Of a stretch of DNA of 54,329 nucleotides, positions 20,054 through 51,799 are shown one piece after another. This stretch comes from an uncultured Helicobacter sp. (lineage in GTDB: Bacteria; Campylobacterota; Campylobacteria; Campylobacterales; Helicobacteraceae), in contig CAMWUR010000006.1 of assembly GCA_947177485.1 (NCBI GenBank), positions 1 through 54,329 on the forward strand. Direction: 5' to 3'. Position numbers and translations under genes: made by a program. Position 1 is the stretch's first letter, and every line of letters begins with the position of its first letter. The notes beneath the pieces are model-generated. The model was not told where the DNA came from. It saw only the letters and a list, made by a program, of their open reading frames with translations, and did not search any database.

Positions 20054-20082
20054 CCACAAGCAAAAATTGTGCCCTATTGTGC

Positions 20083-20088
20083 TATAAT
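20083..20088 (+). promoter_or_regulatory. Candidate -10 box for hsdR
   Basis: A perfect TATAAT inside GCTATAATGG. Transcription would begin near 20095, which places an upstream TTG (20077) before the transcript and supports translation from 20119. Confidence 0.5.
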
Positions 20089-20118
20089 GGCAAATCGTTT
20101 GCGGTGAGGGTGGCGGCT

Positions 20119-23007
20119 TTGAAACCAGAACAAAAAGCGAGACTAGAGATTGACAAATTGCTTTGCGAAGCAGGGTTTTTGGTGTTGGACTATCGAGATT
20201 CCAAGCCCGATACAAAAGTCCATTATGCTGTACGTGAGTTTGTGCTCAAAAATGGCACGAGGGCAGATTATCTTGTGTTTGTGGCAGGCAGAGCATGCGC
20301 GGTAATAGAAGCAAAAAAGCCAAATGCTTTAAGTGGCGCGGAGAATCAATCGCTAAATTATGCGCAAAATCTCGCAAAAGAGCTAGGTGAGATTACTTTC
20401 CTCTACCAAAGCAATGCAAACGAGCTATTTTTTACGAATCTCAAAGAGCCAAAGCCAAAATCGCGCAAGATTTTTGCGTTCCATTCACCAAAAGAATTGC
20501 AGGCAAAACTTGATGATGAAAGCTCGTTACGTGCTCGAATCTCGCAGCTCCCCTTGCTTGAAAGTGCGCGATTGCGCGACTGCCAAAAAGACGCAATCGT
20601 TGGCTTAGAAAAATCGTTGCAAAACAACAAGCAACGTGCGCTAGTTTATATGGCAACAGGCGCGGGCAAAACTTTCACGGCATGTAATATCGCCTATCGC
20701 CTAATTGCACACGCAAAGGCAAAACGTATTCTATTTCTTGTCGATAGAAACAATCTCGGCAAGCAGACTAAAAAAGAATTTGATAATTTTGCAATCCCTA
20801 AAGACAAGAGACATTTTAGCGAGATTTATAATGTGGTGCATTTGGAAACAAATGTGATTCCAGAAGAATCTAAAGTCGTGATAACGACAATCCAGAGGCT
20901 TTATTCAATGCTATGCGGAGAATCGGAGTTTGATTCTGCTAATGAAGAACATTCAAGCTTTGAAAGCCACGATGTCCAAACAAAAGACGTTGCGTATAAT
21001 CCCCAAATGGGCATTGATACGTTTGATTTTATCATCATCGATGAATGCCACCGCAGCATTTATGGACAATGGCGGCAAGTGCTTGAATATTTTGACGCGT
21101 TTCTGATTGGGCTTAGTGCGACACCCTCGAAGCACACATTAGGTTTTTTCGCCCAAAATGTCGTGGCGCAATATGACTTAGAAAAATCCATTCTCGATAA
21201 AGTCAATGTGGGCTATGAAATCTTTAGAATCAAAACTCAAATCAGCGAAAAGGGCAGCGTCATTGAAGCAAGTGCAGAATTTCAAGTGCCATTCCGCGAT
21301 AAAGAGACGCGAAAAATTGGCTATGAAACCCTAGAAGAAGATTTAGAATATTCCAAATCAGACCTAGACCGTTCTGTGCTCGCCCCCAGCCAGATTCGCA
21401 CGATTTTGCAGACCTATAAAGATAAAGTATTCACAGAGCTTTTCCCCGAGCGCAAGCCAAGCTATATCCCCAAAACCTTGATTTTTGCCAAAGACGATAA
21501 CCACGCTGAAGAAATCGTGCGCCTTGCGCGAGAAGTGTTTAATGCAGATAATGAGTTTGCGCAAAAAATCACCTATAATATCGGCAATCAGAATCCGCAC
21601 GAGCTCATCAATCGTTTTAGAAACTCCAAGCAATTTAGAATCGCCGTAACCGTGGATATGATAGCCACAGGCACAGACATTAAGCCGCTCGAGGTTTTAA
21701 TTTTTATGCGCGACATTAAATCGGCGAGCTATTATGCGCAAATGGTTGGACGCGGGGTGCGCAGCATTCATCGTGAGGATTTACGCGCGGTTACGCCAAA
21801 TGCAGATTCCAAAACGCATTTTTATGTGATAGACGCAGTCGGCGTGAGCGAGAGTCAAAAGCTCGATTCGCGTCCGTTAGAACGCAAAAAGTCTTTGAGC
21901 TTCAAAGAGATTTTAAAACATGTGCGTGAGAGTGTGGAAAAAGGCGATTATGAAAAAGATATATTATTAAGCTTTGCCTCGAGGCTAAGTCGCCTAGAGC
22001 TGAAATTAAGCGATGAGGATAATACGAGTTTAAAAGATTTAAGCGGCAAGAGCCTCTGTGCGCTTGCGGGTGAGATTTTGGAGTTTGCCGATTCGGAATG
22101 TTTGGAACACTCACTTTGCCAAGCTGAAACTTTACCTTGTCAAACCGAGATTCCCAGCTGCCAAGCTGAAAGCCCCTTGAGCGATTCTAAATCTCCCATT
22201 TATGATTCTGCGTCTCCCATTTGCGATTCTGTGCCTCCTTCTTATCATTCTGAACCCAATCTCCCTTGTCATTCCGAGTCTCCCATTTGTCATTCTGAGC
22301 CTTTAGGCGAAGAATCTCAAAACAAAGAATCCCCGAGCAACTCACTAAAGATTTTCACAGACAAAAACTTTTGCAACCTGCTTTTGACAATGGCGAAAAA
22401 GAGCAGAATCTATATCGATGAAACCTCGCAAGATTGCGTGCTGCACACGGGGTTTGACACGCAGAATGCGCAGAATCTCATCAGCAGATTCCTTGATTTT
22501 ATCTTGAGAAACAAGGACGAAATCGAGGCGCTAAGCATCATCTATGCGCGGGATTACAAGAATCGCCACTTGACATATAGGGTGATTAGTGAGCTCGCAA
22601 CCAAGCTAAAGCGCGATTCCATGGATATTCCAAGCCTCTGGAACGCGTTTGCTTTGCGCGATAAAGACAGGGTGAGCAGGAATCCGAGCAAGAACCTCAC
22701 GAATCTCATCAGCCTCGTGCGCTATGCGCTGCATCATGACGACAGGCTGCAAGATTTTGCGATTATTTCCATTTCGCGCTATAATCTATGGATAGGACGT
22801 TGTGTGCAAAAAGGCATGCGCTTCAGCCCCGAGCAGGAGGAGTTTTTGGAGCTCATCAGGGATTACATCATCGCAAATGGAATCGCCGAAATTGCCGATA
22901 TTCAAGAGATTTGCGCCGATGTTGGCGGGCTGTATCGCGCAAGGGCATTGTTCAAAGAATCGCTCGAAACGTTGATTGATGAGCTCGGAATGGCGTTGGT
23001 GGGGTAA
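20119..23007 (+). CDS. hsdR: Type I restriction enzyme R subunit
   Basis: The motor/nuclease subunit of a type I restriction system. The start chosen is the TTG at 20119, giving MKPEQKARLEIDKLLCEAGF, which matches the usual N-terminus of this family, with GAGGG 8-9 bp upstream. The nuclease domain (about 45-70) has ADYLVFV...AVIEAKK, the D/ExK core. Helicase motifs are ATGAGKTF (about 178-186), DECHRS (about 306-311) and QMVGRGVRS. The C-terminal domain follows. Between them, about residues 662-740, lies a Cys/Ser/Pro/Glu-rich linker made of dispersed repeats (22105-22335). Without it the protein has normal length. The frame is intact. Confidence 0.95.
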   Translation: MKPEQKARLEIDKLLCEAGFLVLDYRDSKPDTKVHYAVREFVLKNGTRADYLVFVAGRACAVIEAKKPNALSGAENQSLNYAQNLAKELGEITFLYQSNANELFFTNLKEPKPKSRKIFAFHSPKELQAKLDDESSLRARISQLPLLESARLRDCQKDAIVGLEKSLQNNKQRALVYMATGAGKTFTACNIAYRLIAHAKAKRILFLVDRNNLGKQTKKEFDNFAIPKDKRHFSEIYNVVHLETNVIPEESKVVITTIQRLYSMLCGESEFDSANEEHSSFESHDVQTKDVAYNPQMGIDTFDFIIIDECHRSIYGQWRQVLEYFDAFLIGLSATPSKHTLGFFAQNVVAQYDLEKSILDKVNVGYEIFRIKTQISEKGSVIEASAEFQVPFRDKETRKIGYETLEEDLEYSKSDLDRSVLAPSQIRTILQTYKDKVFTELFPERKPSYIPKTLIFAKDDNHAEEIVRLAREVFNADNEFAQKITYNIGNQNPHELINRFRNSKQFRIAVTVDMIATGTDIKPLEVLIFMRDIKSASYYAQMVGRGVRSIHREDLRAVTPNADSKTHFYVIDAVGVSESQKLDSRPLERKKSLSFKEILKHVRESVEKGDYEKDILLSFASRLSRLELKLSDEDNTSLKDLSGKSLCALAGEILEFADSECLEHSLCQAETLPCQTEIPSCQAESPLSDSKSPIYDSASPICDSVPPSYHSEPNLPCHSESPICHSEPLGEESQNKESPSNSLKIFTDKNFCNLLLTMAKKSRIYIDETSQDCVLHTGFDTQNAQNLISRFLDFILRNKDEIEALSIIYARDYKNRHLTYRVISELATKLKRDSMDIPSLWNAFALRDKDRVSRNPSKNLTNLISLVRYALHHDDRLQDFAIISISRYNLWIGRCVQKGMRFSPEQEEFLELIRDYIIANGIAEIADIQEICADVGGLYRARALFKESLETLIDELGMALVG
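22105..22335 (+). repeat. In-frame dispersed repeats within hsdR
   Basis: The coding sequence repeats short units such as CATTCTGAG.CT, TGCCAAGCTGAAA and GATTCTG.GTCTCCCATTT. They encode CQAE, CHSE, YDS and CDS tandem motifs and end CHSEPLGEESQ. The core GTCATTCTGA...GAAGAATCTC equals the intergenic unit at 15819-15862 (reverse strand) and those in hsdS. It forms a linker between helicase and C-terminal domains without breaking the frame. Confidence 0.8.
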
Positions 23008-25241: not shown

Positions 25242-25283
25242 AATATGTTAAAAAAATCCAAATTTGATAACACAAGGAAGGGC

Positions 25284-26354
25284 ATGCAAGAGTTTATCCC
25301 CGAAGAATTACCACTGAAAATAGACTTAAATAATATTATTATTGGTAAACTTATAAAAGCTTCAAGGGAACTAAGCAAGCTAAATGGAATTGCAAAGATT
25401 ATTCCTAATCAAGCCATTCTCATTAATGCACTTGTTTTGCAAGAAGCAAAGGATTCGAGCGAAATAGAAAACATTATTACAACACATGATGAACTTTTTA
25501 TAGCTCAAGTAGATGAACATAAAATAACTCAAGCTGCTAAAGAGGTGCAAAGCTATCAAAGTGCCTTAATGAAAGGCTTTAATTTAATTCAGCAAGATAA
25601 AGTTTTTAAAAATTCACATATTTTAGAAATTCAAAAAAGACTTGAACGCAATAATGCAGGTTTTAGGAGACAAAGTGGCACAACACTTCAAAACCAAAAG
25701 GGTGAAATAAAATATATTCCACCACAGCATTATGATGATATTGTACGTTTAATGAGTAATTTGGAACGATATATCAACGATGATTCTTTGCATGATATAG
25801 ACCCACTTATTAAAATAGCGATGATTCATTATCAATTTGAAAGTATTCACCCTTTTTATGATGGCAATGGAAGAAGCGGAAGGATTGTTAATATCTTATA
25901 CCTTGTCTATAAAGAGTTATTAGATTTGCCTATTTTGTATTTAAGTGGCTATATAGTTAAAAATAAAGCCCTTTATTATGAACTCTTGCAAAAAGTACGT
26001 GATAAGAATGCGTGGGAAGAGTGGATTTTATATATATTAGAAGGTGTCTCACAAACTGCTTCTAGCACAATTAAAATTATAAATGAGATTAAAAATTTAA
26101 TGGCAAATACTAAAAATATTTTGCAAACAAAAGAACCAAAAATTTATAGTAAAGATTTTGTAGAATCTCTCTTTATTCACCCTTATACTAAAATAGATTA
26201 TATTGTGGAACGTTTGAAAATATCAAGGCAAACTGCCTCTAAATATTTAAAGATTTGCCAAGAATTAAGAATTTTAAAATGCGTTAATATTGGAAGAAAT
26301 AAGTATTATGTAAATATTAAATTGTTTGAATTGTTTAAAAAAGGAATAAGCTAG
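25284..26354 (+). CDS. Fic-family protein (probable AMP transferase)
   Basis: A Fic domain protein with the complete active-site motif HPFYDGNGRSGR, expected to transfer AMP or another nucleotide to a target protein. SSEIEN in the N-terminal region matches the inhibitory-helix pattern [S/T]xxxE[G/N], placing the autoinhibitory segment in the same chain. The last 70 residues form a winged-helix-like domain (YIVERLKISRQTASKYLKIC). The ATG at 25284 is preferred because AGGAAGGG precedes it; an in-frame ATG at 25245 lacks a ribosome site and lies beside the hairpin. Genes unrelated to restriction, including Fic types, are known between hsdS and hsdM in Campylobacter relatives. Confidence 0.85.
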   Translation: MQEFIPEELPLKIDLNNIIIGKLIKASRELSKLNGIAKIIPNQAILINALVLQEAKDSSEIENIITTHDELFIAQVDEHKITQAAKEVQSYQSALMKGFNLIQQDKVFKNSHILEIQKRLERNNAGFRRQSGTTLQNQKGEIKYIPPQHYDDIVRLMSNLERYINDDSLHDIDPLIKIAMIHYQFESIHPFYDGNGRSGRIVNILYLVYKELLDLPILYLSGYIVKNKALYYELLQKVRDKNAWEEWILYILEGVSQTASSTIKIINEIKNLMANTKNILQTKEPKIYSKDFVESLFIHPYTKIDYIVERLKISRQTASKYLKICQELRILKCVNIGRNKYYVNIKLFELFKKGIS

Positions 26355-27885: not shown

Positions 27886-30800
27886 ATGCATGTGCAGATT
27901 TTAGTGCTCGATTTTGGCTCTCAATACACGCAGCTCATCGCGCGGAGATTGCGTGAATATGGAGTTTATACCGAGATTGTGCCCTATTTTGAAAAACTAG
28001 ATTCGATTAAAAGCAAAAATCCCAAAGGCATTATTCTAAGCGGAGGACCTGCAAGCGTATATGAAAAAGATGCTTATAAGCCCGATAGCGCGATTTTCTC
28101 GCTCGGGATTCCAATCTTAGGAATCTGCTATGGTATGCAGCTTATCGCCCAACATTTTGGCGGACGCGTCATCAAGGCAGACGCGCAAGAGTTTGGCAAG
28201 GCGGTGCTAGAGATTGTGGAATCTTATGCGGATAAAGATTCTCAAACTTCATCTTGTCTCACATTTCAAGATGTTTCTCAAGACAAAAACACACAAGTGC
28301 CGATGAGCCTTTCTTTTACGCTTTTTAGCCACAGCAAGTTTCCTCAAATGCTAGGCGCAATGCTTGATTTATGGGAAGATTCTGTGCGAGCAAGCCACAC
28401 TTTTTTAACTAAGCAAGACATTGCAGAGATTAAGCCAGAAGTCAAAGCAGCACTCAAAAGCTCTCAAAATATCATCACTGCGACAGATAAAAAGGATTTT
28501 TTGGGCTTTATTGGTGTGGAAAATAATAAGATTGAAATGCTTTTTGTCGCTTCAAGTGCCTTTAGAAAAGGTGTGGGCAAGGCATTGTTAAAGGAGGCGT
28601 TGGAGCGATATTTGAAAGATTATCCTGACATTTTGGTGGATTGTAATGAGCAAAATACGCAAGGCTTGGCATTTTATCAGCACTTAGGCTTTGAAATAAT
28701 GAGCAAAAGCGCGCAAGATTCTGCAGGAAGAGACTTTCCTATCGTGCATTTAAAAATAGACAAAGAAAGGTTTGAAAATGCCTTAAAACCTTTGCATTAC
28801 ACAATTTCTCCTGCAAGAAAAGAAGATTTGGAAGAGATTTTAGCCTTGCAAAAAATTGCCTTTGTTGATGAAGCAAGGCAAATCGGCATAATGGATATTC
28901 CGGCTCTAAAGCAGGATTTAAAGAGTATCCAAGAAGAGTTTGAAATGCACACTTTTTTGAAATGCACATTTAAAGGCAAGATTATTGGTTCTGTGCGTGG
29001 ATACACAAAGCAGGACACAACTTATCTTGGCAAACTCTTTGTGGATTCTTCCTATCGGCAAAGAGGCATTGGAAGTGCGCTTGTTCAAGCCCTTTGTGCC
29101 ACACTTCCCGCAAAGCGATATGAGATTTTTACAAGCGAAAAAAGCCTTGAAAATATCGCACTCTATGAGAAGCTAGGATTTGTGGAGTATAAAAGAGAGA
29201 AGCTAAAGGGATTTCCCATTCAAGCGGTGTTTTTGCAAAAACAACAACCCATTTGCGAGAGTGAGCGTATCTTTTTGCGCCCTTATACACAGGCGGATTT
29301 TGTGCAATTACACAGAATCTTAAGTGATAAAGAGACAATGTATGCGTGGGGGCACGGCTTTAGTAAAAAGGAAAGTCAAGAATGGCTGGATAAACAATTG
29401 GTGCATTATCAACAATATGGCTTTGGAATCTGGGCAATTGTGGAGAAGCAAAGCGGCAAGATTATCGGCAATGCGGGGCTAAATTATGCAGAGATAAACC
29501 TAAAGGGCAAAACTCAAGAAGTTGTAGAAATCGGCTATCTTTTACACCGCGATTTTTGGAACAAAAGCTATGGAAGCGAAGCGGCTAGAATGTGTGTAAA
29601 ATATGGCTTTGAAACTTTAGGATTAGAGGAGGTATATTGCCTCATCAAAGAGGATAATTTGAGCTCTCTTAAAGTCGCAAAAAAGCTTAGTATGCAAAAA
29701 GTGGGGGAATATCTTAAGCCTTATAAGGGTAAAAAAATAAACCATTTGGTTTTTAAGCTTGACAAAAAAGTATGGCAAGAATTAGAAAATAGCGCCACGC
29801 AAGGTTTTAAATCTTGCTCACTCTTTAAAGGTGTGAAGCAAGCTTCTATCGTATGGATGAGCCACGCAGACAAGGTGGAATCTATCCCAAGCGGTTTTGT
29901 GGAGCTCGCGCGTAGCGGGAACACGCATTATTGCGCGATTGCGGATTCTAAGCGCAAAATTTATGCTTTGCAGTTTCACCCTGAAGTCGTGCATAGTGAG
30001 TGTGGGGGGCAGATGTTGCAAAACTTTGCAGTAGGGATTTGTGGCGCGGATACAAGCTGGAATATGCGGAATTTCGCGCAAAATGAGATTGAAAAATTGC
30101 GCCATATCATTTATGGAAGCGAAAATGTGGATTTGCAAAATTCTGCTTTTATTACATTAAAAGTTGCTATTAAAGAAAAAGGAAAGAAGCAAACGATAGA
30201 AAACCTCCTACAAATTTGGGAAGATTCTGTGCGATCCACGCAGCAAGTGAGCGAAGCTTTTATCACCCACAGACGTAAAGAGATAGAAAAAGATTATATT
30301 GCAAAGGCAGAGGAAATATTGATTGCTAAAAAAGCAGGGGAATGGCTAGGCTTTATCGCGGTGAAAAGCAATGAAATTACTCTACTTTTTGTCGCGCCTC
30401 AATATTTTAGCAAAGGGATTGGCAAGGCACTGCTTAAAGAAGCAATAAATTGGCATTTGTATAAATTTGACAGCATTATCCTTAATAGTCGTAAGCAAGC
30501 TTTGGGATTTTATCAATCTTTGGGATTTAAAAAGGCAGGCGAACCCTTTTGTGTTGGAAGTTATCAGAAAATTATGCTAACGCCTATGGAGGTAGCGAGG
30601 GAGCAATTACAGCGCACTTTGGAATCTCCAAAGGATTCTTTGTCTTTTATCACTCTTGTAGAATCTTTTAAACAAGTTGGGAAAGCACAAGCAATTCAAC
30701 ATCTTGCCTCTATTTGGGAGCAGGGCGCAAGAGCTACCCACAAAGATTTAAGCGAAGATGAGATTGCGGGTATGAGAGAGGAAATACGTGAAGCTGTTTT

Positions 30801-31725
30801 AAAATCTAACAATCTACTTATAGCTCAAAAAAATGAAGAATGGCTAGGTTTTATTGAGATAGAAAAAAATGAAATTACAATGCTCTTTGTAGCTCCAAAT
30901 GCCTTTAAAAAAGGTGTGGGTAAAGCACTGCTAAAAGAGGCATTGAGGCGATATTTATATACATTTGAAGTTATAAAAGTCGCAAGCCTTGAGTGGGCTT
31001 TGAGTTTCTATCAGCATTTAGGATTTACAAAAACAGGAGAAAAACCTATCCCTGCAGGGAGTGGTGGTAAATTTTCACCAAAACTTATCCCCCTAAGCAT
31101 TGCACGTGAGAGTTTGCAAAAGTCTTTGGGGCTTGAGGCACAAGGAAAATGTAAGAGGGTGCGTTGCGCTTGGGCTACCGATAAGGACGAATCGGCACGT
31201 AAATTATATGAAAATTATCACGATACAGAATGGGGCAAACCACTACACGAGGATAAAAAACTTTTTGAATTTTTGATTTTGGAGGGCTTTCAAGCGGGGC
31301 TTTCTTGGATTACGATTCTTAAAAAGCGAGAGAGTTTTCGGGTGGCGTTTGATGAATTTGATTACCATAAAATCGCCGCTTATGATGAAAGCAAAATAGA
31401 ATCTTTAATGCACAATGAGGGGATTATTAGGAATCGTGCCAAAATAGAAGCTGCGATTATCAATGCTAAGGCGTTTATGGCAGTGCAAAAGGAGTTTGGA
31501 AGCTTTGATAGTTATATTTGGGGCTTTGTGGGAGGTAAGCCGATTATCAATGCCTTTGAGAGTATCGCAGATTTGCCCGCTTCTACACCGCTTTCGGATA
31601 CAATCGCTAAAGATTTGAAAAAGCGTGGGTTTAAGTTTGTCGGCACTACAACTATGTATGCGTTTATGCAGGCTATTGGAATGGTGAATGACCACCTCAC
31701 CTCGTGCTTTAAGAGGCATAAATAA
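27886..31725 (+). CDS. guaA: GMP synthase amidotransferase domain fused with five GNAT domains and Tag glycosylase
   Basis: One uninterrupted 1279-aa frame. Residues 1-113 are the first part of the GuaA glutaminase, with nucleophile C81 in GICYGMQL. Residues about 145-292, 300-452 and 455-632 are three GNAT acetyltransferase domains (for example [15 protein letters not shown] and [15 protein letters not shown]). At about 646 GuaA resumes exactly ([20 protein letters not shown]) and supplies H698 and E700, so the catalytic triad is complete, ending near SENV (748). Two more GNAT domains (about 755-900 and 918-1075) follow. Residues 1090-1279 form a complete 3-methyladenine DNA glycosylase I, with zinc ligands C1094, H1112, H1270 and C1274 and catalytic E1133. 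The ATP-pyrophosphatase half is a separate gene at 33835. Confidence 0.92.
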
Positions 31726-35234: not shown

Positions 35235-36341
35235 ATGACGATACAAGCACATTTAGATAGAATCCAAACGATTAATCAAGGGAGTTTTTACACGCCTGAT
35301 TCTATTGTGCGCCTTGTGTATCAAATGCTTTTAGATGCTAAAATGGATATAAAAGATTATGTTTTGCTTGATAGCTCTTGTGGTTATGGCAGCTTTTTAA
35401 ATTTAGAGGGTTTTAAGCAAAATATCGGTGCAGATGTTGATAGTGTTGCCCTATCAAAAGCAAAAGCATATTTTAAAGATTCTTATACGAAGCCCTTATT
35501 TATCCATACTAACGCACTCGCTGATGTCCAAAGAGACAAATTTAGTCTTACAGAATCTGATAAGCTCATTATTATTGGAAATCCGCCCTATAACGATAAA
35601 ACCTCTATCGTGCAAAATCGCCTTAAAAGCACAGATTCTAACCCTGTGGATTCTCATCTTAAAGCACGAGATATAGGCATTAGTTTTTTGCGCTCATTTG
35701 ATATATTAAAAGCTGATTATATCTGTGTGCTTCATCCGCTTTCTTATTTGATTAAGGAATCAAACTTTAAATCCTTAAAAAACTTTATCAAGCATTATCG
35801 TTTATTAGATTCTACAATTATTAGCTCACAAATTTTTTGTCCTAAATCTTTGGGATTTTTTCCTATTGTCATTGCCTTGTATGAAAAAGATAATCAAGGA
35901 ATGGATTATGATTTTATTTGTAATTTTTCTTTTAAAACTCGTGATGGCAAATCTTTTAAACTCAATGATTTTGATTTTATCGCAAGATATATTGATAAAT
36001 ACCCTAACAAAAAGCGGGTATGTGAATCTCAAAAAGTGGCGATGTTTTATACTCTGCGCGATATTAATGCTCTGAAGCGTTCAAAAACCTTTATAACAAA
36101 AGAAAATACGAATACCATTTATATTACACAAGATAAATATAGCCTTTACTGCTATGTTGATGTGTTTAAGCAAATCATCAAACATATTTCTTATTATCTA
36201 GGAAATTGTGATATTTTGATAGATTTTAAGAAGTTTCAAGCCTTAGAATCTGCATTTATAAAAGCAAGTGAAAGCAAGATTTTAAGCGAGGATATAATGC
36301 AGTATTTCAAAGATTTATTAGGGGAGCATTATGAGAATTGA
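35235..36341 (+). CDS. N6-adenine DNA methyltransferase (type II)
   Basis: 368 aa. SAM-binding motif I is LDSSCGYGSFL after QGSFYTPDSIVRLVY, and the catalytic motif is NPPYNDKTS (about 116-124), the gamma-type order with motif I first. The C-terminal part should recognise DNA. The end overlaps the next gene by 11 bp, and that gene is the expected endonuclease. AT-rich codon use marks it as part of the transferred block. The recognition site is unknown. Confidence 0.87.
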   Translation: MTIQAHLDRIQTINQGSFYTPDSIVRLVYQMLLDAKMDIKDYVLLDSSCGYGSFLNLEGFKQNIGADVDSVALSKAKAYFKDSYTKPLFIHTNALADVQRDKFSLTESDKLIIIGNPPYNDKTSIVQNRLKSTDSNPVDSHLKARDIGISFLRSFDILKADYICVLHPLSYLIKESNFKSLKNFIKHYRLLDSTIISSQIFCPKSLGFFPIVIALYEKDNQGMDYDFICNFSFKTRDGKSFKLNDFDFIARYIDKYPNKKRVCESQKVAMFYTLRDINALKRSKTFITKENTNTIYITQDKYSLYCYVDVFKQIIKHISYYLGNCDILIDFKKFQALESAFIKASESKILSEDIMQYFKDLLGEHYEN

Positions 36342-37098
36342 GAGTTTGGAAAATAGTAAAATTCGTGTAGAGATTCCGCCTACAACACAAAGTGGTAAGA
36401 TTAGAGTAAAGACAAGAAATAGTTTTTATGAATATGGAATCCCAACGGCAACAAGGCAGATTCCATTCTCGCAAAAGCATTATATTGAATGGCAAATCGG
36501 CTATGATGTGGATAAGAGCGATAAAGAAAAACTTGCTTTAAGCACCTTGCAAGAGACGCATTTTGTAGGAGCAAATGAGAAAAATAAGGCACTTTATGAG
36601 TTAAGTGAATATTTATATTATTTTGTGCAGTGGGGAATTATCAACAAGGCAGAAATTGAAAATCTTTGCACATTTTTACAAAATCTTAAAAATGAGGATT
36701 TCATAGATAGTAGAGAGGATTTGCAGATTTTTAGAAGCCACCCAAAGCAAAAGCAAATTTTAGACATAGAATTTTATGTAAGCGAAGTGAAATATCCGCT
36801 TTTAGTTCATAAATTTGGTAATTTTGATGTGTTGGTTGAAATCATAATCAAAGAAAAGCAAAGAGCCATAGGAGTGCAACCTATGCTTTATGTGTGCTTT
36901 CCTATCACAGAATTATTGCCTAAAGAAAATATGCCGCTGCTTTTAGGCAGAGTATCAGAATCTAAAGAATGTGCTTATCTTTTGTTGGATTCTAAAGACA
37001 AAGATTTTTTACTAGAAATTTTTAAGATTTTTGGAATCTTAAGCAAGAATCATCGTTATGATGTGTTAAAAATTTTAAAGGTTATTAAAAATGGATAG
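36331..37098 (+). CDS. Probable restriction endonuclease paired with the adenine methyltransferase
   Basis: 255 aa beginning behind AGGGGAGCATT. The N-terminal region (SGKIRVKTRNSFYEYGIPTA) is basic and strand-rich. I see no clear PD-(D/E)xK core, which would fit a non-metal nuclease such as the R.PabI type known from Helicobacter, but this is a guess. Its role is inferred from the overlap with the methyltransferase gene and from three analogous pairs nearby. A diverged guaA 3' end follows at 37109. Confidence 0.5.
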   Translation: MRIESLENSKIRVEIPPTTQSGKIRVKTRNSFYEYGIPTATRQIPFSQKHYIEWQIGYDVDKSDKEKLALSTLQETHFVGANEKNKALYELSEYLYYFVQWGIINKAEIENLCTFLQNLKNEDFIDSREDLQIFRSHPKQKQILDIEFYVSEVKYPLLVHKFGNFDVLVEIIIKEKQRAIGVQPMLYVCFPITELLPKENMPLLLGRVSESKECAYLLLDSKDKDFLLEIFKIFGILSKNHRYDVLKILKVIKNG

Positions 37099-37108
37099 AA
37101 ATAAAATA

Positions 37109-37174
37109 GAGGGTATAAATTGCATGGTGTATAACATCACAAGCAAACCTCCGAGTAAATTAAAGTGAGAGTAG
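37109..37174 (+). pseudogene. Diverged copy of the guaA 3' end
   Basis: This 66-bp stretch aligns without gaps to the last 66 bp of guaA (34699-34764), including the stop region. About 51 of 66 bases match by eye, with a 16-bp exact core (ACATCACAAGCAAACC shared apart from later changes). Read in frame it gives EGINCMVYNITSKPPSKLK, against the real [19 protein letters not shown]. It has no upstream guaA sequence. It is best explained as the far end of an insertion at the guaA 3' end. Confidence 0.85.
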
Positions 37175-37176
37175 CA

Positions 37177-38787
37177 ATGACACAAGCTCTAACAAATAAT
37201 AAAGATTCCATACAAAAGAAATCTTTACTCACGCCCAAACAAGCGAGTATTTGGGCTAGTGAATATTTAGGGAAAAAAGTAACAAGCAATAATATTATCT
37301 ATCTGTTAAATTATGGGAAAATTGCAAATCATAGTGAAAATCTAAAAGAAAATTTGATTGATAAAAATGAGCTTAAGGTATATTATGATGATACAATCAA
37401 ATCACAAAAATGCTTGGAATCTCCTCTCTCTTTTGCGCAATACAAAGAAGCAGAGACGACTAAACATATCCATAGAATCCACCCCTATAAGGGCAAGTTT
37501 ATCCCTCAACTTGTGGAATATTTTTTAGATTCGCATATAGATTCTATCAAACGAGAAACTTATTTTAAACCCAATGATATTGTGCTAGATATTTTTGCAG
37601 GGAGTGGCACGACTTTATGCGTAGCAAATGAGCTAGGAATGAATGCAGTTGGGATTGATATTTCAATCTTTAATACTTTGCTTTGTAATGCTAAAGTTGC
37701 CAAATATGATTTAGAAGCCCTAGAAGTTGAACTTCTAAGACTTACAAACTGCCTAGAAAAACAGACAAAGAAACTACAAATTAGCTCTTTTGAATCTGCT
37801 TTAAATGACGCCTTGAGTGCATTTAATCAAGCTTATTTTCCCAATAAAACCTTTAAACGTCAAGTTGCCTTAAAACAGATTAATGAAAAAACTTATGGAG
37901 AGGCAAAAGCGCAGGAGTTTTTAAAAATTTATAATGACTTAGTGAAGCTTTATCATATTAACCTTAACACAAAGATGCAAGGAAGTTTTTTTGAAAAATG
38001 GTATATGGATTCTATAAGGGAGGAGATTATTTTACTTAAAAATGAAATTGCAAAAGCTCCCAAAGTTTTACAGGATATTTTACGCATTATTCTAAGTCGC
38101 ACAGCAAGAAGCACTCGCGCCACGACACATTCGGATTTAGCTACACTTTTAGAACCTATCACAGCGACTTATTATTGCAAAAAACACGGCAGAATTTGTA
38201 AGCCACTTTTTAGCATTGCAAAATGGTGGAAAGCTTATGCTAAAGATACTTTGAAGCGATTGAAAGAATTTGAATCTCTGCGAAGTGAAACGAAGCAACT
38301 TTGCTTGAATGCAGATTCTACAAATGTGGATATTATCGCTGCAGTGCAACAACAAGATAAAGCTTTTGCGCAACTTATCAAATCTCAAAAAATTGCTGGA
38401 ATCTTTAGCTCCCCGCCTTATGTGGGCTTAATTGATTACCACGAACAACACGCTTATGCCTATGATATTTTTGATTTGCTTCGCAAGGATAATTTAGAGA
38501 TTGGCAAGTTAAGCGAGGGGCAAAGCAAAAGCGCGCAAGAAACATATACTCAAGGCATAGCACAAGCTTTGAAAAACGCTAAAAGATTTTTAAAAGAGGA
38601 TTATAATATTTTTTTGGTTGCCAATGATAAATTTAATCTCTACCCAAAAATTGCAGAATTGGCGGGAATGCAAATTGTCAAAAAATACGATAGACCTGTG
38701 CTTAATCGTAGTGAAAAAGATAAAAATAGGTATAATGAGAGTATATTTCATTTGAGGGGGAGAGTGTGCAATGTTAAGCAAAATTGA
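37177..38787 (+). CDS. DNA methyltransferase, SPPY type
   Basis: 536 aa from the ATG at 37177 (a GTG at 37165 lies in the guaA-like remnant). Motif I is DIFAGSGTTLCVANELG (about 139-155) and the catalytic motif is FSSPPYVGLIDY (about 409-420). These are far apart, with a long helical recognition region between them. SSPPY suggests N4-cytosine or N6-adenine modification. The end overlaps the following endonuclease gene by 17 bp, forming a type II pair. IHRIHPYKGKFIPQLVEYFL before motif I is typical of this class. Confidence 0.85.
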   Translation: MTQALTNNKDSIQKKSLLTPKQASIWASEYLGKKVTSNNIIYLLNYGKIANHSENLKENLIDKNELKVYYDDTIKSQKCLESPLSFAQYKEAETTKHIHRIHPYKGKFIPQLVEYFLDSHIDSIKRETYFKPNDIVLDIFAGSGTTLCVANELGMNAVGIDISIFNTLLCNAKVAKYDLEALEVELLRLTNCLEKQTKKLQISSFESALNDALSAFNQAYFPNKTFKRQVALKQINEKTYGEAKAQEFLKIYNDLVKLYHINLNTKMQGSFFEKWYMDSIREEIILLKNEIAKAPKVLQDILRIILSRTARSTRATTHSDLATLLEPITATYYCKKHGRICKPLFSIAKWWKAYAKDTLKRLKEFESLRSETKQLCLNADSTNVDIIAAVQQQDKAFAQLIKSQKIAGIFSSPPYVGLIDYHEQHAYAYDIFDLLRKDNLEIGKLSEGQSKSAQETYTQGIAQALKNAKRFLKEDYNIFLVANDKFNLYPKIAELAGMQIVKKYDRPVLNRSEKDKNRYNESIFHLRGRVCNVKQN

Positions 38788-39520
38788 AATAAAAACCTTG
38801 CAAGAAATAGAATCCAAATACTATATGCAGCCTATGATTGCAAAAATCAATGCAGATATTTCTACTAAAACATTGAGTTTTCAAGAAATTTTTAATCATC
38901 TCTATGGCTATCTTGTAGATTGCAAAGACGAAGTAGACAATCTCATTCAAAAAAGAATCCAAAAAGGTGAGATTAAAGATGCTTCACAAGCAAGAAAAAG
39001 TATTGCTGGAAGTGCGTTTTCAAATCTTATCATTTGGGTGTTTCTTAAAAATAAAGAGCAAGGTAGGGTAAAGCAAAATATTTTCATTACTTCTAAAATT
39101 TCTTCTATCCCACAATGGCAAGATTTATTTTATATCAAAGTAGGAGAAGAGACACAAAAACCCGATGTGGATCTAGTGATTTATAGTTTGAATTCTAATG
39201 CAAAATTGCATAAATGTTTGATATTATCACTTAAGACTTCTTTACGGGAGAGAGCTGGACAAACTTATAAATGGAAGCTTTTAATGGAAATTGCTAACAC
39301 AGAAACTAGCATTAAAGAAAAGTATGATATTTCTTACAATCCTCCCATTTTGCCGCTTGTGTGTTTTGCTACCGTGAATTTTTATAATGAAATTAATAAC
39401 CCCCAACATAGAGGAATGTTTAAATTTTTTGATTGTGCATTTATTGGTAAAAATATACAAACAGGTGATTTTATCAAGCCCTTAAGTTGCCTCATTGATT
39501 ATATAAGCGAGAAACTCTAA
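38771..39520 (+). CDS. Probable type II restriction endonuclease (BsaWI-like?)
   Basis: 249 aa. A nuclease core appears as KPDVDLVIYS...LILSLKTSLRERAGQTYKWKL, that is an acidic residue followed by SxKTS and a basic helix, the pattern seen in BsaWI-type enzymes. It overlaps the methyltransferase genes on both sides (17 bp and TAATG 1 bp), so it is translated with them. Family placement is by eye only; role as cognate nuclease of the preceding methyltransferase is inferred from order. Confidence 0.7.
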   Translation: MLSKIEIKTLQEIESKYYMQPMIAKINADISTKTLSFQEIFNHLYGYLVDCKDEVDNLIQKRIQKGEIKDASQARKSIAGSAFSNLIIWVFLKNKEQGRVKQNIFITSKISSIPQWQDLFYIKVGEETQKPDVDLVIYSLNSNAKLHKCLILSLKTSLRERAGQTYKWKLLMEIANTETSIKEKYDISYNPPILPLVCFATVNFYNEINNPQHRGMFKFFDCAFIGKNIQTGDFIKPLSCLIDYISEKL

Positions 39521-40812
39521 TGACGCTTTTAGAAAAACCTTATCCCAATGTAGAATTGGTGTCAAAACACGCTATTAAAGATTCTAAAAAGCAAGGGTAT
39601 TTAGCAGCTCATAATTCCAAATACGACTTTTTGGGACAGTCTTATGCGTCAATGTATCCTAATTTGCATAAATATCCCGCAACAATGCTTCCTCAAATTG
39701 GGTTTGAATTGCTTAAGGAATTTAAAGCCAAGAAAAGTAATCTTTTAGACCCATTTTGCGGGAGTGGAAGTAGCTTTATAAGCGGTTTAGAATATGGGAT
39801 TAGGCATTTTGCAGGTTTTGACTTAAATCCTTTAGCGATGATGATTTCAAAGGCAAGAATGACTTATATAGAATCTTCTTACCTTATAAAAGAAAAAGAG
39901 AAACTCTTACATCGCATAGAATCTAAAAATGAATCGCCTTTGGATTCTAATCCTTTAGAAAATATTACAAATCTTGATTTTTGGATAGAGAAAAATGCAC
40001 AACTAGATTTAAAATTGATTTTTTCTTGTCTTAAAAATTTAGAGAACAAAAATGTGCAAAATCTCTTTATGCTTGGTTTTAGTGAGACTTTGCGAGAGTG
40101 TAGCTATACTCGCAACAATGAATTTAAACTCTTTAGAATGAAAGATTATGAACATTATAAACCCAATGTGTATGCTATTTTTGCTAAAAATATAGAATCT
40201 CTTGTAAAAGATTATTTGCAATTTTATCAACCTAAACTCCAAGGAATTAGCCTCAATCTTAGTAATACAAATTTTCAAAATTCAAAGCAAAAATTTGATA
40301 CTTTGCTGACAAGCCCACCTTATGGCGATTCTAAAACTACGGTTGCGTATGGACAATTTAGCACTTTTATCAATGAGTGGCTAGGTTTTAAAGACGCTAG
40401 GAAATTAGATTCTAAACTTATAGGTGGAATAAAGGCTCAAAAGCCTTATAATAGAGGCTTGATAAAAGATTATATTTTAGAAATTTCTACAATAGACAAA
40501 AAAAGAGCCTTAGAAATCTCAAGTTTTTATTTTGATTTAGAATCTAGTATTAAAACTCTCATAGATTCTATAAATATTGGCGGCAAAATATTTTTTATCG
40601 TAGGTAATCGTAGAGTAAAAAATATAGAGCTCCCTACTGATAAGTTTATCGCTGAAGTGTTTTGCAATAATGGTTTTACACATTTACAAACCATTAAGCG
40701 CAAAATTTCTAACAAATCAATGCCACTTAAAAATTCCCCAACAAATAAAGCGGGGATTCTTTCACGCACGATGAATGAGGAATATATTGTAATATGCGAG
40801 AAGAGGAGTTAA
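39520..40812 (+). CDS. DNA methyltransferase, TSPPY type (probably N4-cytosine)
   Basis: 430 aa. Motif I is LLDPFCGSGSSFISGLEYG (about 75-93), followed by GFDLNPLAMMISKAR. The catalytic motif LLTSPPYGDSKTTVAYGQFS lies at about 260-280. The TSPPY form is most common in N4-cytosine methyltransferases. The ATG overlaps the stop of the preceding endonuclease by one base. The next gene starts 4 bp after its end, giving a compact pair. Confidence 0.87.
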   Translation: MTLLEKPYPNVELVSKHAIKDSKKQGYLAAHNSKYDFLGQSYASMYPNLHKYPATMLPQIGFELLKEFKAKKSNLLDPFCGSGSSFISGLEYGIRHFAGFDLNPLAMMISKARMTYIESSYLIKEKEKLLHRIESKNESPLDSNPLENITNLDFWIEKNAQLDLKLIFSCLKNLENKNVQNLFMLGFSETLRECSYTRNNEFKLFRMKDYEHYKPNVYAIFAKNIESLVKDYLQFYQPKLQGISLNLSNTNFQNSKQKFDTLLTSPPYGDSKTTVAYGQFSTFINEWLGFKDARKLDSKLIGGIKAQKPYNRGLIKDYILEISTIDKKRALEISSFYFDLESSIKTLIDSINIGGKIFFIVGNRRVKNIELPTDKFIAEVFCNNGFTHLQTIKRKISNKSMPLKNSPTNKAGILSRTMNEEYIVICEKRS

Positions 40813-40816
40813 AATA

Positions 40817-41584
40817 ATGCAAACTCTTAAAAACAATATCAAAAATCGCCTTATTTTAAGTTTGCGTAATAAGTTTGAAAACTACAAGCCCGAAACTTCT
40901 TCTATGCCCTTTCATACAAGACTTTTAGGCAAAGATAGAATGGCACTTTATAGCTTTATCCAAAGCCTCAATACTAATTTTGGCACAAGTATCTTTGAGC
41001 CTGTGGCGGAGGAATTAGCTAAGGCATATTTTGATAAGATTGAGCGGCAAATAGCAGTTACAAATACAATTACCAAAGAAGCACAAAGAGTGATACAAGA
41101 TATTATGGATTCTTTAGAAAGTGGTAATTCTAAACCCAACAAAAACGAGGAAATCGCTAGAATCTTAGCGGTTTCACAAAGTGGAGAAACAAGCATTATC
41201 AAACCTACAAAGGTGGATTTGTTTTTGCAAAAGGGTAATAATGTATATTTGATTGATATTAAAACTGCTAAACCAAACAAGGGTGGATTTAAAGAGTTTA
41301 AACGTACACTTTTAACGTGGATAGCATGTTTTGCTTATAGTAATCCAAATTTTAATATTCAGTCACTTATCGCCATTCCCTATAATCCCTATGAACTAAA
41401 ACCTTATGAACGATGGACGATGGCAGGAATGCTAGATTTACAAGCAGAACTCAAAGTTGCCCATGAATTTTGGGATTTTCTAGGTGGAACAGGAAGCTAT
41501 GAGCTCATTTTGTCTGCTTTTGAAGAGGTTGGGTGTGAAATGAGAGGAGAAATTGATGAGTATTTTAAGAAATTTCAAAAATAA
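40817..41584 (+). CDS. Type II restriction endonuclease, TdeIII-like
   Basis: 255 aa with a clear PD-(D/E)xK-type core, KVDLFLQ...VYLIDIKTAKPNKGGF (about 133-155), in which the acidic residue and DIK supply metal binding. The phrase DIKTAKPNKG and the following helix resemble the TdeIII family. It is immediately downstream of the TSPPY methyltransferase. It ends the restriction block; the next gene lies on the opposite strand. Confidence 0.78.
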   Translation: MQTLKNNIKNRLILSLRNKFENYKPETSSMPFHTRLLGKDRMALYSFIQSLNTNFGTSIFEPVAEELAKAYFDKIERQIAVTNTITKEAQRVIQDIMDSLESGNSKPNKNEEIARILAVSQSGETSIIKPTKVDLFLQKGNNVYLIDIKTAKPNKGGFKEFKRTLLTWIACFAYSNPNFNIQSLIAIPYNPYELKPYERWTMAGMLDLQAELKVAHEFWDFLGGTGSYELILSAFEEVGCEMRGEIDEYFKKFQK

Positions 41585-47926: not shown

Positions 47927-48200
47927 AGTTATTTATCCCTTCATTCAAATTATATCTTTAGTCATGTGTATTTATAACATTAAACAGATTCTGCGATACA
48001 AAGAGATGTTTAGAATTTGCTTGACTTTGGCGCAATAAATCGGTTTTGGTGTTGGGGTGGGGCATGGTAGTCTTTTGCAATATGTTCAATCAACACACAA
48101 ATCTTTGTATTAAACTTTCAAAATATAGTCCTATTAGATGCTGCCCAAACTATAAGCTTTTGCCTCAATGTTTTACTTCGCTGCTACAAATTTCGTAGCA

Positions 48201-48614
48201 TCAATGTTCATTAGTAAAGCAAGGAAACAAATTAGGGTAGACTTTACGATAAATCCAATTTTCTAGCAAGTCTTTTCTCTTTGAAATAACTGGAATTTTT
48301 AATGCCTCAATTTCACTACTTGTGTTGTTAGTAATTTTGATTGCAACAACAGGCTTCCCTATGTCAACAGCAAATCGAATCTCATCAATAGCCATTCCAT
48401 TGTTATTTGCTGGTCTATTAGAACACACAACAATACTGGCATATTTGATTCGGTTTTGGATTTGTGGGTCAAGATTATATCGCCCATCAATTTTTAATGG
48501 GCAATCTGATGAAACAGAATAATCTATCACTTCAAATCTGGTTCTATCTAACAATGCACTTATTTCTTGGTAATCATCATTCTTCCACCTATGTGGTATG
48601 AATACTTTAATCAT
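48201..48614 (-). CDS. TIR-like (DUF1863/ThsB-type) protein
   Basis: 137 aa. It opens MIKVFIPHRW, and QIQNRIKYASIVVCSNRPAN then IDEIRFAVDIGKPVVAIKI are the TIR-like/DUF1863 pattern used by ThsB of Thoeris systems. E78 is the candidate catalytic acid of the NAD-cleaving site. ThsB proteins make a cyclic ADP-ribose-type signal when a phage is sensed. The gene lies 32 bp after a caspase-like gene, with an AAGGAGGAAAC ribosome site. A 6-bp hairpin (TGCTAC...GTAGCA) directly follows the stop. Confidence 0.82.
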   Translation of the reverse strand: MIKVFIPHRWKNDDYQEISALLDRTRFEVIDYSVSSDCPLKIDGRYNLDPQIQNRIKYASIVVCSNRPANNNGMAIDEIRFAVDIGKPVVAIKITNNTSSEIEALKIPVISKRKDLLENWIYRKVYPNLFPCFTNEH

Positions 48615-48646
48615 GTTTCCTCCTTAAATTGATTGCGGATAACACT

Positions 48647-49615
48647 TCAAATTGTATTCTTTTTTACAAGATTCCAATAATGTTGTCCGCAAGCTGTTAA
48701 TTTGCAAGTTTTAGAACGGATTGCTGCATAATACATATGTTCTTCACCAATTGGTATTACTAAATTTAACCTTGCATATTTCTGCAAAATTGCAAATATA
48801 GCTTCATGTTCTTCATTTTTATCTTTAATTTTTACCTCATGTTTATCAGGTTCATAGCTTGGATCAAGCTTATATTCATCTTGAGGTGTAGGAAAAAAGA
48901 CTATTATTTTTCTTAAATCTGTTATCGAAATAGGGGGTGTATTTTTCCTTAAAGAAATAAAACTGTTTACGTTTGCTTTAAATACAGGTCTTTGTTCCCA
49001 AGCTCCAAGAGATTTATCAATATAGGCGTAAATACTTCCCGGAGAAACCTCTCCCAATAAATTCATTGCGCCACCATATAAAGCCTCAACCAATAGTGAT
49101 GTATAAACACCATGTCCATCTTTTTCTGTCGCATATTGATCTTTTTCACAAGCAGCAAGTATGGTTGTTCCATCATGTAGCAATGAATAATTAGACATTT
49201 CAATTTTATTACCCATATTGCCACAAAAACAACTATCGAGAATAATAATTTTATTTTGTGCTTTTGATTGAGATGCAAATAACATAATATCATTAAGTGA
49301 TAAACCTTCATCAGCTCGTTTGACCTCACTTGTACACAAGTATCCGCCAGTTGGATCAATAGAACCATGTCCTGAATAATAAAAAAGAGCAATTTCCGAT
49401 TCGCTTTTAAATAATTCCTCAATAGCATCTTTTAATTCAGTTTTGCTTATATACGATTCTTCGCTTATTGAACACATTAATTTTACGTTAAAATTTAATG
49501 TGTCATCTCCATTGCGCTCCAGAACTTCTTTAACTGCTTTAGCATCATTAACACAACCATGTAACCCTTTTATGTTTTTATAGCTATCTATCCCTACACA
49601 TAATGCTTTTCTCAT
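48647..49615 (-). CDS. Caspase-like (peptidase C14) protease
   Basis: 322 aa from the ATG at 49613-49615 (MRKALCVGIDSYKNIKGL) behind AGGAGACAGCAA; an earlier ATG at 49666 would overlap the endonuclease gene and lacks such a site. The catalytic dyad is visible: H83 in YYSGHGS and C129 in LDSCFCG. The p20-like fold extends to about residue 230. The remaining 90 residues are a separate domain of unknown type. Coupled with the TIR-like gene, this matches type IV Thoeris, in which the TIR signal activates a caspase-like protease to kill the infected cell. Confidence 0.88.
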   Translation of the reverse strand: MRKALCVGIDSYKNIKGLHGCVNDAKAVKEVLERNGDDTLNFNVKLMCSISEESYISKTELKDAIEELFKSESEIALFYYSGHGSIDPTGGYLCTSEVKRADEGLSLNDIMLFASQSKAQNKIIILDSCFCGNMGNKIEMSNYSLLHDGTTILAACEKDQYATEKDGHGVYTSLLVEALYGGAMNLLGEVSPGSIYAYIDKSLGAWEQRPVFKANVNSFISLRKNTPPISITDLRKIIVFFPTPQDEYKLDPSYEPDKHEVKIKDKNEEHEAIFAILQKYARLNLVIPIGEEHMYYAAIRSKTCKLTACGQHYWNLVKKNTI

Positions 49616-49658
49616 TTGCTGTCTCCTTATCTTGGCTTGTGCTTCAACATAGCAATTC

Positions 49659-50534
49659 CTAACCAATCTGCTTGCATGGAATCTTTAATTTTTCCAATAT
49701 CACCCTAAAATCCCTTAAACAATCTGGATTGCTTTTAAGCTCTAAATATTCAATCCCTAAAAACTTCAGTTGATTTCTATTTTGAATACTTAATGTATCT
49801 GCTATGAAAATGTTAGTATCTCTTGCAATCACGGCATCAGCAGATTCTGGATTGCCTTTGCCCATTAGTTTTACCTCAACTCTATATTCTTTGCTCTTGC
49901 TAGAATTATAAAGTTTAAAATCCACTTCTCTATCAAAATCAAGTTCCCCATTTTTCTTAAAAACTTCACTATTGATAAATGCTTTTTCTACTCCGCATTT
50001 TTGACATAATGCTAACATTAAAGGCTTTTCAACTCTTTTGCCTATACTACTCCAAGCCCCACCTCTTAAAGCAATTTTCTTTGTTGCCAAAGCATTAATA
50101 ACCAATAAGCTCTCATTTAAATTTAGCTCTACCGAGATTTCCTTATAGGAAATCTTTAAATTAATTCCGATATTTTCACTGTTATCTCCTAAAGAATTTA
50201 GTAAAGATTCTAAATAATCAATATTGGTATTTGCCACATTTAATATGATTTCTTTTGTTGCGCTCCCATAAATATTTGCAATAGTCTTTTTATTCATACC
50301 TGCAAAAATTGCTGCTTCACTCGGCTCAATATTTACATTATTAATGAAATGTTGCTTATACCATTCCAAATTAATGCTTCTATCGTTTAATTTTGCTTCT
50401 AAAATTTGTTTGAAAAAGTCTAAGGCAAAATCTAAGAACTCTAAATTAATTGCATTGATAACTTCCTCTCTGTAATCCTCTCCTTTTAAAAGTTTTTCTA
50501 TGGTTTTATTGATGACAATATTATCAAATCTCAT
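49659..50534 (-). CDS. Type II restriction endonuclease, CfrBI-like
   Basis: 291 aa starting at ATG 50532-50534, inside the end of the methyltransferase gene, behind AAGGGG. The C-terminal part has the nuclease core EVDFKLYNSSK...YRVEVKLMGKGNPESADA (about 204-236), where the D and ExK residues bind metal, in the style of CfrBI. The N-terminal half is helical. The 43 bp before the caspase gene allow a common transcript. Confidence 0.8.
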   Translation of the reverse strand: MRFDNIVINKTIEKLLKGEDYREEVINAINLEFLDFALDFFKQILEAKLNDRSINLEWYKQHFINNVNIEPSEAAIFAGMNKKTIANIYGSATKEIILNVANTNIDYLESLLNSLGDNSENIGINLKISYKEISVELNLNESLLVINALATKKIALRGGAWSSIGKRVEKPLMLALCQKCGVEKAFINSEVFKKNGELDFDREVDFKLYNSSKSKEYRVEVKLMGKGNPESADAVIARDTNIFIADTLSIQNRNQLKFLGIEYLELKSNPDCLRDFRVILEKLKIPCKQIG

Positions 50535-51681
50535 CAAATCCCCTTTGTTTTAATTTTTCTGCATAATCTAAATTTTGCTCGCATAAAAGCGGAATCCTGC
50601 CCATTGTGTTTGCAACTTTTCCAAATGTTCCACTACCTGCAAAAGGGTCGCATACGACATCACCCTTAAAAGAATAATATTTTAGCACTTTTTGACAAAG
50701 CTCTTCTGGAAAAACTGCTGGGTGATTTTTATCAAACTTTGGTGCAATATACCAACAATTTGTCGAATCTATTTCGTCATCATTTTTCAAATTTTTATCA
50801 TAATCTCTAATGTTTTTATCTAGCAAAAAAGGTGTATTTTTGCGGTATACCATAATACTCTCCGTAATGCAATTTGGCTTATAGCTTAGAGGTTTTTTTG
50901 TTTGTAAATATCCTGCTATTCGATTGGGTACAGAGTATTCGGGTTTTATCCAAATAATTTCATCTATAAAATAAAATCCACTGTCGCATAAAATCTTATG
51001 AAAATCGAAATGTATAGGATAACGAATAGATTCAAATTCTCTTCCCGCCCTTTTAGTAATTACGGGTGAAACATTAATGAGGATAAATCTACCATTTTCC
51101 AATATTCTATAACATTGTTTTAAGGTATCTTTCATAGAATCCAAATAATCATGATAACTTTTATAATCACTATAAAGCCTTGCATTATAATATGGCGGTG
51201 AGGTAAAAATGAGTTGGATTTGTTGTTCTTGTATTTTATTAAGAGTAATACGATTGTCTCCCACAAGCAAAGAGGGTTTTAGAATCTTTCTTTGAGGTTT
51301 TAGGGACATCTTTTTTTGTTGCCTAAATATAGAATATTCGAGCATTTTTTGCATGACTTCATTATTATAATGCCTCAAGATTCTATCTCTTAAATCTGCA
51401 AATCTCGCGTCTTCTTTAGACTTATAAAGACATGTGCGAAACATTTGGTAAATAACTTCCATGTAGTGATTGCTGAATGCTTCCCGATTTAAAAATTCAT
51501 AGATTTTATCGTTATTTTTTTGCCGACCGATAGATGAAACAATCTCCCTTCTAATGTCGACACCTAATTCCTCTTGCGTAAACATATCCAAAAGAATGGC
51601 AATGTTAGAATCCGATTTTTCAAGCCCCAATCTTTTAATAGATTCTATGGTAGGAATATTGACAAAAAGTGTTTCAGTCAT
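50524..51681 (-). CDS. DNA methyltransferase, TSPPY type, CfrBI-like
   Basis: 385 aa. The catalytic motif is IFTSPPYYNARLYSDYKSY (about 158-176) and motif I is CDPFAGSGTFGKVA near the C-terminus (about 346-359). This is the beta-class order with motif IV first, usual for N4-cytosine and some adenine enzymes. The first 130 residues are an extra helical region. It overlaps the CfrBI-like endonuclease gene by 11 bp. Four genes (methyltransferase, endonuclease, caspase, TIR) run in one direction, suggesting an operon. Confidence 0.88.
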   Translation of the reverse strand: MTETLFVNIPTIESIKRLGLEKSDSNIAILLDMFTQEELGVDIRREIVSSIGRQKNNDKIYEFLNREAFSNHYMEVIYQMFRTCLYKSKEDARFADLRDRILRHYNNEVMQKMLEYSIFRQQKKMSLKPQRKILKPSLLVGDNRITLNKIQEQQIQLIFTSPPYYNARLYSDYKSYHDYLDSMKDTLKQCYRILENGRFILINVSPVITKRAGREFESIRYPIHFDFHKILCDSGFYFIDEIIWIKPEYSVPNRIAGYLQTKKPLSYKPNCITESIMVYRKNTPFLLDKNIRDYDKNLKNDDEIDSTNCWYIAPKFDKNHPAVFPEELCQKVLKYYSFKGDVVCDPFAGSGTFGKVANTMGRIPLLCEQNLDYAEKLKQRGFDEI

Positions 51682-51763
51682 TTTTCATTCTTGCTTAATC
51701 GTGTCCAGTGGTTTATTTGTAATGCCATTACCGCTCCCAACATCCACACACATGATTATATTA

Positions 51764-51799
51764 TTGCCCCCCACCCAAACCGAGCGAGGGGTGGGGCAA
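51764..51799. terminator. GC-rich hairpin after icd
   Basis: TTGCCCCCCACCC pairs with GGGGTGGGGCAA (one bulged C), with an 11-bp loop, 16 bp beyond the icd stop on the minus strand. The following bases are AT-rich but not a pure T-run. It probably ends icd transcription. Confidence 0.6.

Follow-up and report, generated by a model that had tools for sequence, protein, structure and literature searches.

A type IV Thoeris-like caspase-TIR pair with inverted gene order behind a CfrBI-like restriction-modification system in an uncultured Helicobacter

In an uncultured Helicobacter sp., a gene for a caspase-like protease lies at the downstream end of a restriction-modification (R-M) operon and is followed directly by a gene for a small TIR-like protein. 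Do these two genes work together in defense, and if they do, to which known system do they belong? The window (the whole stretch of DNA analyzed, 54,329 nucleotides of contig CAMWUR010000006.1) had been interpreted before from its letters and open reading frames, and this sequence-only reading took the caspase and TIR genes for the two components of type IV Thoeris. In that system, reported by Rousset et al. (2025, Science 387:510) as described in PMC12847820, the TIR protein produces N7-cADPR, and this signal activates a caspase-like protease encoded in the same operon. In the window, the genes follow each other on the minus strand in the order DNA methyltransferase, CfrBI-like restriction endonuclease, caspase-like protease, and TIR-like protein, with these features:

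51681-50524, minus strand: cognate N6/N4 DNA methyltransferase (PF01555, 2.4e-36; PADLOC MTase_II, 5.8e-165)
50537-49659, minus strand: CfrBI-like type II restriction endonuclease (PF09516, 2.8e-30; PADLOC REase_II, 6.4e-121)
49615-48647, minus strand: caspase-like protease (type IV ThsA-like effector), 322 aa from ATG
49367..49369, minus strand: His83 codon of the caspase catalytic dyad (YYSGHG)
49229..49231, minus strand: Cys129 codon of the caspase catalytic dyad (LDSCFCG)
48650..48940, minus strand: caspase C-terminal domain, residues 226-322, proposed signal sensor
48614-48201, minus strand: TIR-like protein (ThsB-like, "HRW" subfamily), 137 aa
48381..48383, minus strand: Glu78 codon, predicted TIR catalytic glutamate
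47971..51792, no strand: inserted defense block (R-M, caspase, and TIR), from the DNA comparison with relative G002
47926-47492: GNAT gene, one flank of the block

The caspase and TIR-like genes are both intact and stand side by side, 32 nt apart, and the family matches listed above confirm the CfrBI-like R-M pair that had been read upstream of them. The methyltransferase and endonuclease genes overlap by 14 nt, the gap between endonuclease and caspase is 43 nt, and strong ribosome-binding sites (AAGGAGA, AAGGAGG) are present on both the caspase and the TIR gene. Scans of the locus for sigma-70 promoters and terminators gave sites no more numerous than in shuffled sequences, so we assign operon status from spacing and ribosome-binding sites. 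A 339-aa alternative frame of the caspase, with a TTG start, is also present beside the 322-aa ATG frame.

The block seems to have arrived as a unit. On the flank opposite the GNAT gene is a gene ending at 51815 that we take to be isocitrate-dehydrogenase-like, a name given by reading rather than by a family search. The closest relative, G002 (a genome only 61% complete, with ~92% DNA identity in this dehydrogenase-like gene), shares 91.9% DNA identity with the window up to 51793 and 87.7% from 47970, with nothing in common between. At the same site, this relative carries two ThsB_TIR genes around a small unassigned gene (L089, 2388-3780), an arrangement that matches the PADLOC candidate PDC-M50. 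Since both flanks match and a different TIR cassette lies between them, it appears that the 3.8-kb R-M-caspase-TIR block entered a defense hotspot in one piece, by insertion or replacement. No diagnostic repeats were found at the insertion ends, and no near-identical copy of the block was found in plasmids. The window genome is the only one with the caspase among five sampled in its genus; in 397 sampled genomes of the phylum, the only full-length caspase relative in its own family is that of G000, and elsewhere in the taxonomic order full-length relatives occur in G051, G306, and G047, together with a broken one in G184. TIR-caspase immunity is hereby extended into a host family in which no other sampled genome has it.

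Other parts of the window also carry restriction genes. A type I restriction HsdR-like protein of 976 aa (20077-23007, plus strand) is accompanied by a Fic protein (25245-26354), and a dense row of R-M genes (35235-41584, plus strand) codes for an N6 methyltransferase, an R.Pab1-like protein, an N6/N4 methyltransferase, a BsaWI-like protein, a methyltransferase, and a TdeIII-like protein. An unusual fusion of 1,279 aa (27886-31725, plus strand) joins a glutamine amidotransferase, four to five GNAT domains, and a C-terminal methyladenine glycosylase.

The assignment of the first gene of the pair as a caspase-like protease with an H83/C129 dyad was confirmed by family, residues, and fold. It matches Peptidase_C14 (PF00656) at 2.1e-18, far over the cutoff, and the PADLOC caspase model at 3.8e-19; H83, C129, and D127 do not vary among 17 aligned relatives. 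The AlphaFold2 model (pLDDT 86, pTM 0.83) matches MALT1, caspases, and metacaspases in Foldseek. Against NF047832 (caspase_w_EACC1), the protein scored 4.1e-26 and 91.8 bits, under the curated cutoff of 140, and NCBIfam named neither this protein nor its TIR-like neighbor above cutoff. The window caspase belongs to a widespread family of ~320 aa, made of the catalytic domain and a C-terminal domain of ~97 aa, and no chain of this family was found among solved structures.

The C-terminal domain (residues 226-322), which the sequence-only reading could not name, proved to be real, as it is conserved in all members of the family, whichever TIR subtype accompanies them. Its AlphaFold2 pLDDT is mostly >90, except for a linker at about residues 250-269, and the last ~55 residues are predicted to form a winged-helix-like alpha-beta-alpha-beta-alpha arrangement with invariant LQ, HM, AA, and LT positions. 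Searches with the domain in Pfam and the PDB returned no match, and among 398 Pseudomonadota and 398 Bacillota genomes the domain was seen in this caspase family only (in 7 and 8 genomes, respectively). Presence in every member, lack of a Pfam or PDB relative, and restriction to these caspases fit a role as family-specific signal sensor, and we propose the domain as a concrete candidate for the part of bacterial caspases that senses the nucleotide signal.

The TIR-like protein is more divergent. On its own it scores 19.8 bits against PF08937 (ThsB_TIR), weakly and under the cutoff of 21.2, and 1.2e-4 against the PADLOC ThsB model; single-sequence searches of the PDB, plasmids, and IMG/VR gave nothing useful, and profiles were needed for this reason. 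By hhalign, the clade of the window TIR matches the caspase-paired ThsB-like TIRs with 97.6% probability (E value, 3.7e-12), and a profile of 15 caspase-paired TIRs, window TIR included, matches the solved structures 8fz9 (TIR, 7e-9), 8wcf (EcThsB, 3.5e-7), and 1eiw (MTH538, 3e-4). Across 15 TIRs, mostly ~20% identical, only four columns are invariant (F5, S33, E78, and A82), and E78 is also invariant within the HRW TIR set. The identity proposed from the sequence, a TIR-like protein with E78, is thus strongly supported by the family, the single sequence being weak. Structure prediction agrees with it: the AlphaFold2 model is an alternating alpha/beta protein with a mean pLDDT of 81, consistent with a TIR or nucleoside-hydrolase-type fold.

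Foldseek matches of this model were weak and mixed, including DNPH1, CMP N-glycosidases, nucleoside deoxyribosyltransferases, EcThsB, and ThsB. Because DNPH1 and the deoxyribosyltransferases are among them, an NAD cyclase activity cannot be proven from the fold, and one could read the small protein as a nucleotide N-glycosidase (DNPH1 or deoxyribosyltransferase-like), or as inactive, with the caspase triggered in some other way. These fold matches, among the best to solved structures, and a Pfam score slightly below the cutoff speak for such a reading; we nevertheless regard it as very unlikely, as the profiles match both caspase-paired ThsB-like TIRs and solved TIR/ThsB structures, and the protein holds the position that annotated TIRs occupy beside the caspase in homologous operons.

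How constant is this partnership? Searches were made with the caspase alone or its C-terminal domain alone, and recovered relatives in Treponema, Clostridia, Campylobacterales, and Marinobacter, in 79 plasmid records, two phage-collection records, and IMG/VR, and in whole-genome samples of three phyla. Removal of near-copies left 49 distinct intact loci; L006, L007, L048, and L101 were left out as degraded or truncated, and L003 was retained despite a caspase frameshift near the end. A TIR gene adjoins the caspase (within ~150 bases) at all 49, versus 0 of 30 other caspase-like genes from the same searches (Fisher p 2e-22). Pairs occur in Campylobacterota, Spirochaetota, Bacillota, Pseudomonadota, and Actinomycetota. 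The pairing is obligate across phyla, not incidental, and together with the published gene pair it sustains the assignment to type IV Thoeris made from the sequence. The locus is a hotspot for defense genes, where unrelated neighbors could gather by chance; these adjacency figures, obtained in five phyla, lead us to reject a chance neighborhood of caspase and TIR as exceedingly improbable.

Some loci contain additional genes. At four TIR-first plasmid loci (L008, L016, L017, and L022), the caspase is followed by a further TIR gene, the second or third of the locus, which suggests several sensors feeding one protease. At L011 to L014, on plasmids of Rhizobium, Rhodococcus, Pseudomonas, and Citrobacter, an open reading frame of ~90 aa found 3' of the caspase is a possible third component. 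On an Agrobacterium plasmid, the TIR-caspase pair has another, divergent caspase family gene as its neighbor (L018, 1-826).

Where the window departs from most relatives is in the order of the genes, TIR first at 42 of the 49 loci and caspase first at seven: the window, L026 (IMG/VR), L003 (a Clostridia MAG), L002 (a Treponema MAG), L105 (from the Bacillota sample), L109, and L110. On the caspase tree, these form two separate clades, {window, L026, L003, L002, L105} with support of 100/100 and {L109, L110} with 100/99, the latter adjoining TIR-first L047, a locus from the same taxonomic order as the window; the caspase-first order therefore arose at least twice. Six of the seven carry an HRW TIR, the five others being 39 to 71% identical to that of the window, so HRW TIRs occur with two caspase clades. 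The exception is L002, in which a close caspase stands beside another TIR subtype, implying TIR exchange within the caspase clade. All four strong HRW hits in 398 Bacillota genomes are at caspase loci, and the HRW clade is set off from the other ThsB-like partners by 2.59 changes per site, a very long branch. A distant HRW TIR relative was seen on the Helicobacter pylori plasmid pVN1291 (L123, 3001-3390; 28% identity to the TIR of L105); with no caspase beside it, it was set aside as distant.

With these elements, we consider it probable that the window pair is a type IV Thoeris-like abortive-infection module. On infection, the TIR protein would become active and, with E78 as its catalytic residue, would convert NAD+ into a signal of the cyclic ADP-ribose kind, N7-cADPR being the most likely one. 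This signal would then be bound by the caspase, for which the family-specific C-terminal domain is the probable site, and would switch on the H83/C129 protease; the active caspase would degrade cell proteins and thereby stop phage replication. Signal chemistry, protease activation, and cell killing are here taken by analogy from the published type IV system. Since the pair sits at the downstream end of the R-M operon, restriction could act as a first line and suicide as a second, a two-layer logic that we infer from the layout. Caspase-TIR pairs are spread over plasmids, phage-collection records, and distant phyla.

The signal itself could differ from the published one. The HRW TIR might make another NAD-derived messenger (a cADPR isomer or an ADPR adduct) to which the C-terminal domain is tuned, as could be expected from a clade on such a long branch and found only with caspases, and given that Thoeris types are known to use different signals (PMC12847820). 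We find this unlikely, as the caspases keep the C-terminal domain whichever TIR subtype they are paired with, and the non-HRW TIR of L002, together with the association of HRW TIRs with two caspase clades, is most easily explained by one signal throughout. Because L002 joins a close caspase to a TIR of another subtype, the identity of the signal in the type IV-like module depends on the assumption of a single sensor specificity.

The other peculiarity of the caspase-first loci is what precedes them. Restriction genes are found directly upstream and in the same direction at six of the seven, as follows:

Window: methyltransferase and CfrBI-like endonuclease upstream of the caspase
L026: D12 methyltransferase and type II endonuclease upstream of the caspase
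L003: methyltransferase, Bpu10I-like endonuclease, and a small unassigned gene upstream of the caspase
L002: McrBC component upstream of the caspase
L118 (= L109): type I HsdR with a YgjP-like metallopeptidase upstream of the caspase
L120 (= L105): Mrr-like gene that overlaps the caspase start
L119 (= L110): 563-aa TIR protein upstream instead of a restriction gene

The architecture restriction system, caspase, and TIR thus recurs with one type I, three type II, and two modification-dependent or Mrr-type systems. Of the TIR-first loci, 32 have some 700 or more bases of upstream sequence; among these, counted by hand and with part of the neighbors scanned against Pfam, two have restriction genes there (L039, type I HsdR; L122, HaeIII-like R-M). 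The difference between 6/7 and 2/32 gives a Fisher p of 6e-5, a value from small numbers with shared ancestry and unequal flanks, for genes of a class that clusters generally; because the loci counted are those in which the association first came to notice, the p-value is descriptive and no independent test. The placement of R-M systems upstream of regulated immune operons, type IV Thoeris among them, is a theme of the literature (PMC13373217). Of 377 genomes of the phylum, 22 have a CfrBI-like R-M system, and most of these belong to the window's host family; the endonuclease relatives in the phylum are 44 to 90% identical, and none of 19 other loci examined has a caspase-TIR pair beside the R-M genes.

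These neighbors could mean that the pair serves the R-M system as its suicide switch and is not an independent phage sensor: a backup or addiction device in which the TIR or the caspase responds to DNA breaks or to failure of R-M. The restriction genes preceding caspase-first loci are unrelated to each other and far rarer before TIR-first ones, and the Mrr-like gene of L120 even overlaps the caspase start, as such a device would have it; against this, most family members have no neighboring restriction gene, L119 has a TIR gene in its place, defense genes cluster anyway, and CfrBI-like relatives in the host family do without the caspase-TIR pair. We judge this alternative quite unlikely. A functional coupling, in which a caspase-HRW-TIR suicide module forms a distinct Thoeris subtype that has docked repeatedly behind unrelated restriction enzymes and the outcome of restriction (DNA ends or failure) feeds the trigger or timing of the caspase response, is doubtful as well, and we put it forward tentatively. 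If restriction and suicide were indeed coupled, these loci would represent a compact, modular form of layered immunity that could be tested by swapping parts.

The caspase-TIR kind of system has been known since 2025, and it is the inverted order, the HRW TIR, and the recurrent restriction linkage that define the variant. None of these features was noted at the first reading: the reversed order, the divergence of the HRW TIR, and a linkage that recurs with restriction systems of unrelated types are new here; we found no description of such a variant in the open literature within reach, which did not include the primary type IV Thoeris paper.

Compared with known systems, the window is closest to type IV Thoeris, with which it shares two genes in one operon, a TIR enzyme and a caspase-like protease, with the catalytic residues present. 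It differs in having the caspase first, an HRW TIR, and a position joined 3' of an R-M pair, the likeness being drawn from the published description. The TIR-first pairs annotated in RefSeq as "TIR domain-containing protein" and "caspase family protein", for example on plasmids of Pseudomonas, Klebsiella, and Rhizobium, have the same caspase family over its full length (37 to 53% identity) and the same C-terminal domain, whereas their TIR is upstream and ~20% identical to that of the window. The caspase-first sister loci (L003, L026, L002, L105, and L109/L110) share the gene order, the HRW TIR except in L002, and the restriction genes except in L110, and differ in the restriction system, which is Bpu10I-type, another type II, McrBC, Mrr-like, or type I Hsd, respectively. 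Type I Thoeris (a ThsB TIR with a SIR2-SLOG ThsA) has a ThsB-like TIR in common with the window, in which the effector is a caspase instead and no SIR2 or SLOG gene lies within the inserted block, so that the locus falls outside type I. Last, the endonuclease and methyltransferase families are those of the CfrBI R-M system, and the CfrBI-like copies of the host family come without a caspase-TIR pair.
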